NCBI RefSeq assembly: GCF_003781945.1
Contig: NZ_RJJW01000010.1
Span: 62,001 to 126,000 of the forward strand
Direction: 5' to 3'
Length of the DNA stretch: 64,000 bases
DNA from: Halorubrum sp. CSM-61
GTDB taxonomy: Archaea; Halobacteriota; Halobacteria; Halobacteriales; Haloferacaceae
Below, piece after piece: positions 30,790-48,595 of the stretch; within the stretch, counting starts at the first letter, position 1, and every line of letters starts with the position of its first letter. The position numbers and the translations under genes were made by a program. Below the pieces are notes generated by a model. The model was not told the DNA's origin and ran no database searches. It worked only from the letters and a program-made list of their open reading frames with translations.

Positions 30790-31256
30790 TTCCGGATCGA
30801 CTGTACACTCTGCCAAGGCCCCAATCACCCGGCCGTGCGTGACTGTTTATAAGTCCCCGATCGACGCGAACGCCGCCAAAGCCCCAGTCGCTCGGTAGTA
30901 CGCTAACGTTGCTGCTTATAAACTCCCGATCGACACGAACGCCGCTAAAGCCCCAGTCGCGAGGGCTCGCGTGACTCGCTGTGCTCCTCGACCGCTCACT
31001 TCGTTCGCGGTCTGCGGTGCTTCCGTCGTCAGGCTTCGCCCTCGCGACTGCCCCTTTGAGTCCCACCCGCCCGCACAGCACCGCACCTCACGCCTCCCCA
31101 GCCTCGTCGGCGCGGCGCTTATAAGCGCCGCGCCGAGCTCCCTCGCACGTGCTGTCTCGCGCCCTCTCGGGCGCTCGCAGGCACGCGCCACCGCATCTGT
31201 TGGTGTAGCTCAGCATCTGGACGTGGCTGCTTCCCTCGATCCGGTTTATAAATAGC
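30773..31256 (+). repeat. Dispersed multi-hairpin element, copy D, diverged
   Basis: Three related 5' modules with TATA-like boxes (TTATAAATG, TTTATAAGTC and CTTATAAACT), each followed by a version of CCAAAGCCCCAGTCG; the first is degenerate (CCAAGGCCCCAATCA). Stem 1 is perfect for 12 bp (AGTCGCGAGGGC with GCCCTCGCGACT) and imperfect beyond. Stem 2 is a perfect 28-bp palindrome centred on CTTATAAG at about 31119. Stem 3 is GCGCCC, loop TCTC, GGGCGC. Flank pairs CGTGC and GCACG around stem 3 replace CGCGC and GCGCG of copy A. The terminal repeats are missing. Confidence 0.78.
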
Positions 31257-31343
31257 CGACGCTGGTCGAGTTCGAGTGGAGTTTTGCGAGGGAAGAGCGC
31301 TCCGAGAGCGGTCTTCCGCATTCGCGCGTTGTGGACGCGCTCA

Positions 31344-43027: not shown

Positions 43028-43294
43028 CTACCGGGGACGCGCCTCGTGGACCCCGACGATCTCGGTGAGGTCGGCGACCTCGGCGTCCGGCGCGAGCCGG
43101 AGCGAGGCGTCGGCCTCGACCGTGAGGTCGTTGAGGCGCGGCCGGAGGGCGACCACGTCGAGGGTCTCGACGCGGACGCCGTCTCGGCCGGCGAGCCTGT
43201 CGCGGACCCCGGCGTGGAGGTCGCCCGCGGCGTCGCGGGGGACCGCCAGCCGGAGCGCGACGTCGGTCGCGCGGTGGCAGGGTTGGACTGCCAT
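43028..43294 (-). CDS. Hypothetical 88-aa protein preceded by a tRNA-like leader
   Basis: A small soluble protein, MAVQPCHRATDVALRLAVPR at its start, with alternating beta and helix segments that could form a ferredoxin-like fold (LNDLTVEADASLRLAPDAEV). No family recognised. The ATG lies two bases after the end of the tRNA-like sequence 43297-43355, an unusual arrangement for a start site. Longer in-frame starts would have to run through the tRNA-like sequence. Confidence 0.6.
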   Translation of the reverse strand: MAVQPCHRATDVALRLAVPRDAAGDLHAGVRDRLAGRDGVRVETLDVVALRPRLNDLTVEADASLRLAPDAEVADLTEIVGVHEARPR

Positions 43295-43296
43295 AC

Positions 43297-43355
43297 GGAC
43301 CCGGGAGGGAGTCGATTCCTCATCCCGAGGCTCTGCCGCTTGAGCTACCGGGTCC
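43297..43355 (-). pseudogene. tRNA-like sequence lacking a normal anticodon arm
   Basis: A 59-nt sequence whose ends form an 8-bp acceptor-like stem (GGACCCGG with CCGGGTCC), followed by TA and a perfect D-arm (GCTC, loop AAGCGGCA, GAGC) as in real tRNAs. A T-arm-like GAGG with loop containing TCGA and CCTC follows, but only about 8 nt remain where a 17-nt anticodon arm should be; CCTC-GGGAT-GAGG could form an alternative small hairpin. It looks like a deletion remnant of a tRNA gene, or a tRNA-like leader element of the gene at 43294. Confidence 0.5.
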
Positions 43356-43431
43356 AAGTGTCGGAAAGTGGGACAGGGAGAGAAGGCGGCGCTCGCTCCG
43401 ACGGGCGAAGCCGACCGCCCCCGCGTCGGGG

Positions 43432-43533: not shown

Positions 43534-43716
43534 GGTTGCGGTACCCGGCGGGGAAGTTTCCTCGGGCGTATTCTCATCGACAGGAGGAACCGAGTTAATA
43601 GTTGCTCGTGTGTGGGAATCAATAGCGTGATTGAGACGTGAGAGAATATTCTTGACGGTTATGAACAGACGATTCACGCACGGCTCGCGATGCTCGCCGT
43701 TTGGTGTGTCCGAAAA

Positions 43717-43950
43717 CGTCCTGACGGAGTCCGACGCGAGTGAAACGAGCGTCGGGCACGTCAGGACCGAACGCCGCGGCTGTCGAACGAAGTGAGGCAG
43801 CCGCAAAGTGAGCGTCCTGACGGAGATTTGAACTCGGAAAGACGGTCGGCCTCGCTTCGCTCGGCCGCTGCGACTTTCCTGCTCAAATCTCCGCGGAGTT
43901 TTCGGACGCACGCACGGCTCGCGCTGCTCGCCGGTTGATGCGTCCGAAAA
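43717..43950 (-). repeat. tRNA-Arg-derived hairpin modules downstream of the tRNA
   Basis: Two modules in tRNA orientation. Next to the tRNA 3' end is hairpin X with 12-bp perfect arms (43899-43910 and 43939-43950). Then hairpin Y, whose arms CGGAGATTTGA (43821-43831) and TCAAATCTCCG (43883-43893) copy the T-arm of tRNA-Arg. The module ends in an exact copy of the tRNA 3' end (from 43813). A second, shorter module again ends in the last 13 nt of the tRNA (from 43717), and pairs with an inverted copy near 43760-43769. The 45-bp flank after the tRNA end recurs beyond 43717 in diverged form. Confidence 0.7.
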
Positions 43951-44024
43951 CGTCCTGACGGAGATTTGAACTCCGGTCCCTGGCTCCGCAAGCCAAGAGG
44001 ATAGTCCACTACCCTACCAGGACT
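43951..44024 (-). tRNA. tRNA-Arg (GCG)
   Basis: A 74-nt tRNA including discriminator G. Acceptor GTCCTGG pairs with TCAGGAC (one G-U), D-arm GGGTAGTGGACTATCC, anticodon loop TTGCGGA on stem TTGGC/GCCAG with anticodon GCG, T-stem CGGAG/CTCCG around TTCAAAT. CCA is not encoded. A TATA-like CTTAAGTATT lies about 25 nt upstream. Followed directly by hairpin modules built from its own 3' end. Confidence 0.93.
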
Positions 44025-48030: not shown

Positions 48031-48132
48031 AACCGGACGCTCGCGATCGGTCGTCTGCGGAACTTTCTCGGACGCTCTCGATACGGAAAGCGCTCGCTCC
48101 GCTCCTCGCTCGCAGTCGGCGGCGACAGAATA

Positions 48133-48420
48133 CGCCCGGAGCGGGATTTGAACCCCAGTCGTTCCGCTCGTTTCACTCGCTCTACTCCCTGATTCAAACC
48201 CTTCAGCGCGGTTCCGACCGGACTCGCGGTTCGCGATGCTCACCGCTCGTGGTTGGTCGGAACGGAACGCCCGGAGCGGGATTTGAACCGAAATCAGACG
48301 TGCTCGCTCCCTATCGGTCGCTGCGCGCGACTGATAGGGTTCAAATCCCTTCTACGGTTTCTGCTGTCTCGGTACTCGCTCGTCGCTACCGCTCCTCGCT
48401 CGTTATTGCGACAGCAGAAA
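48133..48420 (-). repeat. tRNA-Asp-derived hairpin modules downstream of the tRNA pair
   Basis: In tRNA orientation: directly after the tRNA end is hairpin X with 12-bp arms (48357-48368 and 48410-48421). Then hairpin Y with 12-bp perfect arms GGGATTTGAACC (48278-48289) and GGTTCAAATCCC (48338-48349), copied from the tRNA T-arm. The module ends with an exact 22-nt copy of the tRNA-Asp 3' end (48268-48289). A second module repeats the plan: X' with 9-bp arms (48211-48219 and 48255-48263), an imperfect Y', and another 22-nt tRNA end (48133-48154). Module lengths are 153 and 135 bp. Confidence 0.75.
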
Positions 48421-48493
48421 CGCCCGGAGCGGGATTTGAACCCGCGTCACGACCGTGACAGGGTCGTATGATGGGCCACTACACCATCCGGGC
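48421..48493 (-). tRNA. tRNA-Asp (GTC), gene 1
   Basis: A 73-nt tRNA with acceptor GCCCGGA/TCCGGGC, D-arm with GTGTAGTGG, anticodon stem CGACC/GGTCG with loop CTGTCAC (anticodon GTC), T-arm GCGGGTTCAAATCCCGC, discriminator G; no encoded CCA. It is the downstream member of a tandem pair, 29 nt from gene 2, and appears identical to it. Its 3' end is followed by hairpin modules. Confidence 0.95.
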
Positions 48494-48522
48494 AAACAGC
48501 GACAGACCCCGAAGCGTGGGGA

Positions 48523-48595
48523 CGCCCGGAGCGGGATTTGAACCCGCGTCACGACCGTGACAGGGTCGTATGATGGGCCACTACACCATCCGGGC
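48523..48595 (-). tRNA. tRNA-Asp (GTC), gene 2
   Basis: Same sequence as gene 1 as far as can be read by eye. It is the upstream member of the pair, with a TATA-like CCTTATTTGCC about 32 nt before its 5' end, so both copies probably come from one precursor. The duplication is recent or kept identical by conversion. Confidence 0.95.

Follow-up and report, generated by a model that had tools for sequence, protein, structure and literature searches.

Direct and inverted copies of tRNA 3′ ends, joined by GA hairpins, downstream of haloarchaeal tRNA genes

In E. coli K-12, the tyrT/tyrV locus carries 178-bp tandem repeats (RtT RNA, RF00391; rttR, tpr) whose plan is related to that of the arrays described here, as we could confirm in the K-12 sequence. 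Each unit closes with 19 nt identical to the 3′ end of tRNA-Tyr and also contains an inverted copy of this end, GGGGAAGGAT. To our knowledge the origin of the tyrT repeats has never been explained. Interstitial direct-inverted-direct segments, on the other hand, are known from ODIRA, or tandem inversion duplication, where the junctions lie at short inverted repeats and are explained by sequential template switches (PMC4689423, PMC10766183). In quasipalindromes the two arms change together without intermediates, which is expected of template-switch homogenisation (PMC8604942, PMC7202029). Finally, the SMR-A/PATE sequences of the haloarchaeon Haloquadratum walsbyi are ~110 bp, non-coding and hairpin-rich and lie within palindromes; they are reported at IS605/PATE ends without target duplication, and their mobilisation has been called enigmatic (PMC3119063). 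In the open-access literature searched we found no description of haloarchaeal tRNA-flank repeats or of the hairpin motif, and modules tailored to haloarchaeal tRNAs are undescribed there, the isolated tyrT case being the known precedent.

The array at tRNA-Arg(gcg) and its plan

The array was found in a 3.7-Mb draft haloarchaeal genome of 24 contigs. The nearest named species by synteny and protein identity is Halorubrum kocurii, with 98% identity for the RPA-like protein adjoining tRNA-Arg. We call the whole 64-kb stretch of DNA that was analysed, G000:C21:62001-126000, the window. Since the tRNA-Arg(gcg) gene is on the minus strand, its 3′ flank extends toward lower coordinates. With T for the tRNA 3′ end and x for the sequence that follows T on the tRNA strand, a first type of unit, XY, reads on this strand [T x] - apex X - [inverted x, m, inverted T-arm] - core Y - [T x]. 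A second type, B, reads [T] - hairpin - [inverted acceptor] - hairpin - [T]; here the hairpins lie on the strand opposite to those of XY (Table 1). Both are direct-inverted-direct triplications with a hairpin at each turn, and an inverted T-arm or acceptor copy is present in 184 of the 206 T-to-T units collected.

Table 1. Coordinates of the tRNA-Arg and tRNA-Asp arrays in the window
Feature	Position	Strand	Basis or remark
tRNA-Arg(gcg), parent of the array	43951..44023	-	ARAGORN; Rfam RF00005; T = 43951-43973
X hairpin	43898..43951	-	stem covariation across 14 species; arms 43898-43910/43939-43951
x, natural trailer	43939-43950		part of X
Inverted x	43899-43910		part of X
m, between inverted x and inverted T-arm	43894..43897	-	degraded inverted-acceptor remnant; intact in tRNA-Gly(ccc)
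Inverted copy of T-arm	43883..43893	-	left arm of Y
Y core, AGGAAAGTCGCAGC..GACCGTCTTTCC	43836..43882	-	GA/GNA apex
Direct copy of tRNA-Arg 3′ end	43813..43835	-	23 nt exact; contains right Y arm (43821-43831), closes unit XY
Unit B, mirror image	43717..43812	+	GA hairpins on + strand
Inverted acceptor copy of unit B	43759-43767		
Direct copy CTCCGTCAGGACG of unit B	43717-43729	-	13 nt exact
Terminal x + X apex	43675..43716	-	without inverted x
Tandem tRNA-Asp(gtc) pair, parent of second array	48420..48595	-	
tRNA-Asp XY unit 1	48267..48421	-	X arms 48357-48368/48410-48421
Inverted T-arm of unit 1	48337-48349	-	
Direct tRNA-end copy of unit 1	48267-48290	-	
tRNA-Asp XY unit 2	48132..48266	-	X arms 48211-48219/48255-48263
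Inverted T-arm of unit 2	48190-48201	-	
Direct copy of unit 2	48132-48155	-	

A previous sequence-only reading of this locus had placed hairpins X and Y and two copies of the tRNA end, starting at 43813 and 43717, and all of these coordinates hold. Hairpin X had been said to abut the tRNA-Arg end with arms of 12 bp; it does abut, the perfect arms being in fact 13 bp long and taking in the last base of the tRNA. The arms of Y indeed stem from the T-arm of tRNA-Arg itself and pair perfectly over 11 bp, and the proposal of the same plan at tRNA-Asp was borne out by two XY units within 48132-48421. One plan thus fits both unit types and the two tRNAs of the window. What had escaped notice is that X itself consists of x, the apex CGGCGAGCAGCGCGAGCCG and inverted x, that the stretch 43717-43812 is a second kind of unit in mirror image, and that the array ends in a copy of x plus the X apex that lacks inverted x. 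This terminal copy parts from X precisely where the apex hairpin has its 3′ foot; comparison of array-end and solo copies led us to abandon its interpretation as a truncated XY unit. Within the Y core, AGTCG..CGTCT is almost invariant and includes a T.T mismatch.

The XY unit folds far better than its shuffled versions (z of -5.1 as DNA and -7.0 as RNA, with no shuffle equally good). A scan of the window for direct-inverted-direct 9-mers gave multi-hit clusters only at tRNA-Arg and tRNA-Asp, with four hits each, while order-3 shuffles gave at most two hits in 59 of 60 cases and three hits in the remaining one. Rfam recognised only tRNAs in the window, a similarity search against plasmids with the tRNA-Arg array as query returned no match, and a pattern search for a T-arm plus T-run found nothing. 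Readings as Box C/D, k-turn or CRISPR sequences were dropped by eye, the matching motif or spaced repeats being absent. Near the array, on the plus strand at 43282-43356, lies a tRNA-like stretch, GACCCGGGAGGGAGTCGATTCC..GAGCTACCGGGTCC, which is called by neither ARAGORN nor Rfam and might be a piece of an intron-bearing or broken tRNA.

Distribution in the genome and across the order

Among the 44 usable tRNAs (ARAGORN) in the stretches of the genome that were read, 16 are followed within 400 nt downstream by their own 3′ end (at least 19 of 22 nt identical). The same criterion applied to the 5′ flanks yields one case, the tandem tRNA-Asp. Counting B-type units and units that split the T-loop (Tyr and Val(cac)) raises the number of tRNAs with modules to about 19, which leaves about 25 tRNAs of this genome where modules are absent. 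They are also absent from the 3′ ends of 5S rRNA and SRP RNA. Unit size is ~95-150 bp. The outer arms differ at every tRNA, following the target, and no terminal sequences are common to all copies. When T-arms were swapped among 14 XY units, the observed pairing left 35 mismatches in the inverted arms compared to a mean of 56.9, and none of 5000 permutations was as low. The direct tRNA copy is longer at tRNA-Tyr (L027) and tRNA-Val(cac) (L022), and its T-loop is interrupted by a double hairpin. Separately, a CRISPR-like array (GCTTCAACCCCACAAGGGTTCGTCTGAAAC) starts ~90 nt downstream of tRNA-Thr(tgt) at locus L036.

The earlier suggestion that self-matched modules reflect a general process is therefore supported, with two corrections. 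A survey of tRNA 3′ flanks of the kind it had called for finds that the modules match the adjacent tRNA, each with its own copy, but roughly half of the tRNA genes have none, so that the modules are common and not universal. Nor is the process strictly tied to tRNA, because the same core occurs with target-fitted arms in another repeat and because there are a few orphan modules.

Copies of tRNA ends that begin at the T-loop recall integration, as tRNA 3′ ends are the classic targets of integrases (PMC8371274), and each copy could in principle be an attR left by integrase-mediated insertion into the T-loop. Two modules, L158 (G000:C16:1769-1850) and L187, are orphans in that their end resembles tRNA-Gly(tcc) but no tRNA gene lies alongside, and they could be the attR of larger, integrated elements; L158 holds a tRNA-Gly 3′ half that ends in a rearranged T-loop. 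For the arrays as a whole we consider this origin very improbable. The units contain no genes, no integrase gene or element lies between a tRNA and its copy, and no integrase was found within 15 kb of the module-bearing tRNAs. Moreover, integration would yield neither an inverted copy nor conserved hairpins.

The flanks of tRNA-Arg, and often those of tRNA-Asp, were gathered by synteny from 80 named genomes. At least one unit is present in 62 of 74 tRNA-Arg flanks and none in the other 12; the combinations include B (25 flanks), XY-B (11), XY (5) and XY-B-XY-B (3). Units of type XY are also found at tRNA-Arg in the Haloferax relatives L110 and L111. Six module-bearing species have a variant tRNA-Arg acceptor (L071, L113, L121, L139, L150 and L151), and in these the copies show no mismatch to their own variant and one to three to the common one. 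Within the order, the Y covariance model matches 31 of the 33 genomes sampled; among the phylum genomes listed it matches none outside the order. Of the 39 match loci examined, 37 adjoin a tRNA. Covariance model R1, which had only 6 pairs from RNAalifold because of arms offset in the alignment, served for searching only. The X and Y cores are conserved across different tRNAs and the whole order. A chance duplication or an assembly artefact might have been suspected in a draft genome, but the same arrays occur in dozens of independently sequenced species and the permutations above gave 0/5000. This explanation is thereby already refuted and retains next to no probability. The observation is real and general and is ordered by one simple law.

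Hairpin apices, arm evolution and a model of fold-back copying

The hairpin apices have the form GA-NN-loop-NN-GA, and GNA makes up 205 of 259 triloops. With a GNA triloop, a short closing stem and flanking GA/GA they agree with the definition of a DNA minihairpin. GNA triloops and tandem GA pairs are known to be exceptionally stable in single-stranded DNA. Of 88 XY units, 74 carry GA hairpins exclusively on the sense strand and 5 have any on the antisense strand; of 96 B units, 67 carry them exclusively on the antisense strand and 3 have any on the sense strand. These counts are not independent, since the units are related by descent. GA hairpins are missing from 26 B-class intervals, some of which are probably the spacer between tandem tRNA-Asp genes. 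That both hairpins of a unit lie on one strand indicates a process acting on one DNA strand.

The arms evolve in an unusual manner. In 14 tRNA-Arg X hairpins, 97.5% of 280 cells are paired, with 45 both-sided changes and only 2 one-sided (G.U), although these come from related sequences and are not independent; slid controls drop to 30-46% pairing. Since G.U intermediates are nearly absent, homogenisation of the arms by template switching fits better than stepwise compensation in an RNA. Such strong stem conservation by covariation, together with the RNA fold z of -7 and the small RNA produced by the E. coli RtT repeats, could otherwise speak for functional RNA trailers, that is structured 3′ extensions of pre-tRNA selected for processing, termination or as small RNAs. 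We regard this as improbable. Besides the missing G.U intermediates, the antisense location of the GA hairpins in unit B speaks against selection having acted on the tRNA transcript, and the 12 orthologous tRNA-Arg loci without a copy also argue against it.

A further objection comes from tRNA-Gly(ccc) (L004), the only case of a full-length inverted centre, in which trailer, acceptor and T-arm follow each other without a gap; elsewhere m lacks the acceptor complement. In folding predictions with a 60-nt flank the complete inversion takes the acceptor stem of tRNA-Gly(ccc) from 0.98 to 0.00, abolishing it, whereas with the altered m the stem is predicted at 0.92 for tRNA-Arg and 0.90 for tRNA-Asp. 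This would point to the decay of m as a result of selection against tRNA misfolding, but only suggestively, because the prediction for tRNA-Arg fails too when the flank is lengthened to 150 nt. Single, sub-threshold matches to miRNA families at Gly(ccc) were dismissed as noise from a long hairpin.

Both array ends and loci without copies have x plus apex X and lack inverted x. Their sequences part from those of internal copies just where the latter run into inverted x, at the 3′ foot of the apex; the continuation shows mostly no mismatches inside arrays and 3-5 at array ends. Loss of a unit by recombination between T copies would leave the same end, so that the change may have run in either direction. 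At the Y junction the T-arm was the only pre-existing palindrome found.

The explanation that we favour, with a probability of about one half (0.52), is hairpin-primed fold-back copying of DNA, which would have created the modules as miniature inverted triplications of the tRNA 3′ end and would keep rebuilding them. The unexpanded state would consist of T, the short trailer x and a minihairpin (GA-NN-GNA-NN-GA) that is very stable in a single strand. Where a nick, a gap or a stalled fork left this strand unpaired, the hairpin could prime synthesis from its 3′ foot that runs back across x and T and yields x*-m-t*. At the Y core, which is another GA hairpin, copying would turn once more, return to T and produce T-x-hp-x*-m-t*-hpY-T-x, and the mirror unit B would arise when this happens on the opposite strand. 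The divergence seen at array ends falls where fold-back synthesis would be expected to begin. Recombination between direct T copies may subsequently remove or multiply whole units, and the model is supported by the variable unit content of tRNA-Arg among named species (none, B, XY-B and XY-B-XY-B). Repeated template switching between arms would keep them complementary, with the local tRNA as well as with one another, and every array would therefore be tailored to its neighbour. In most arrays m would have drifted from the acceptor complement, which if intact should unfold the tRNA. The hairpins must pre-exist, because GA/GA mismatches are not products of copying, and a spreading step is needed, because independent fold-backs would not yield the same X and Y cores. 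The data show the anatomy of the units, their match to the adjacent tRNA, the strand coherence, the both-sided arm changes, the gain and loss of units and the breakpoint at the hairpin foot; we infer fold-back priming, the enzymes involved and a transfer of the Y core between tRNA genes.

The Y core, with its hairpin, is also found inside 8 copies of the Halorubrum repeat R, where the arms AGCAC/GTGCT come from R and a short direct duplication, GCGGT, is seen. Hence the target, though usually a tRNA, can also be something else. Repeat R (GAGGCTGGGGAGG..GGGACTCAAAGGGGCAG..GGCTGGGGCTTTG) is a ~300-450 bp, highly structured, non-coding sequence in which a TATA-like box often precedes GCGGTGGCGCGTGCC. 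In the window it occurs at 1169, 10648, 22367, 23582, 28012, 30996, 32896, 35884, 40308, 59543 and 62725, and also at ~31000-31340 after tRNA-Leu. The genome has 154 exact-pattern copies and 22 other genomes of the genus have 8-131, the repeat being nearly absent elsewhere; no Rfam family matched it in the window search. Double hairpins are also nested in the Y apices of tRNA-Arg and tRNA-Asp (L044, L079, L103, L078 and L085), and by eye these follow the order T-x-apex-x*-t*-hairpin-T on the arm of the hairpin itself. A double hairpin GAGGGACC..GGTCCCTC-TGGCA-GCCGGCGC..GCGCCGGC is seen at hairpin tips (L213, L214 and L216; L044 and L079), its hosts being repeat R and tRNA-Arg modules of other species.

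The conserved cores together with the repeat R and nested-hairpin cases mean that something spreads, be it through transposition or because existing modules serve as templates for copying. The main rival to fold-back copying is a mobile double-hairpin element: two single-strand hairpins, non-autonomous and dependent on a Y1 (IS200/IS605-like) or comparable enzyme acting in trans, would insert in hairpin loops or palindromes including the T-arm and acquire target-matched arms on insertion. Conservation of the cores across tRNAs and genomes, their presence in repeat R with arms from the target and the double hairpins nested in apices of R and tRNA modules are all in its favour, as is the insertion of SMR-A inside palindromes by a mechanism that is not known (PMC3119063). 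We nevertheless think it rather unlikely, given that the length of the direct duplication varies from ~5 to 23 nt and that the segment separating the hairpins copies the target in inverted orientation instead of belonging to an element. A wider formulation, which we put forward tentatively and with some doubt, is that double minihairpins, very stable as single strands, are a new kind of selfish or self-building DNA that spreads by means of inverted target copies, each copy thus being tailored to its target, and finds hot spots at tRNA genes in archaea and bacteria. The targets in this formulation are tRNA ends above all, plus another repeat and other hairpins.

Comparison with known systems

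Taken together the data suggest that tRNA genes are subject to a general process of DNA copying. If this is right, tRNA gene ends are sites of recurrent hairpin-driven inverted triplication across an archaeal order, with E. coli tyrT as a bacterial parallel. The arrays would constitute dense natural records of template switching, made of numerous short and self-labelled events with arms, strand and breakpoints readable from the sequence, and fold-back copying becomes testable in laboratory haloarchaea. It also raises the question of how cells tolerate inverted tRNA-end copies beside the gene.

ODIRA shares with the haloarchaeal units the interstitial direct-inverted-direct arrangement, but its products are of kilobase scale and come from yeast under laboratory selection, whereas the haloarchaeal segments are of ~40 bp, have conserved hairpins at both junctions and are inherited over an order. 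Quasipalindrome template switching gives the same joint change of arms as here; it homogenises existing arms, however, and alone creates no direct copies. In SMR-A a tRNA-tailored inverted copy has not been described (PMC3119063), and fixed terminal sequences common to all copies, as would be expected of SMR-A/PATE elements, are not found in the haloarchaeal modules. The RtT repeats remain the nearest system, both being tandem units downstream of a tRNA that carry a copy of its 3′ end, and the structured tyrT core splits the T-loop like the haloarchaeal Tyr and Val(cac) units. The RtT covariance model (RF00391), with which the four E. coli units score 133-138 bits, does not match the haloarchaeal loci L040, L023 and L004 at E <= 0.1. 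In E. coli the repeats were seen at one tRNA locus in K-12, have no sequence similarity to the haloarchaeal modules and no inverted trailer was found; GA/GNA twin hairpins on one strand were not noted. The haloarchaeal modules, by contrast, occur at about half of the tRNAs, each tailored to its own gene, and in two strand orientations.
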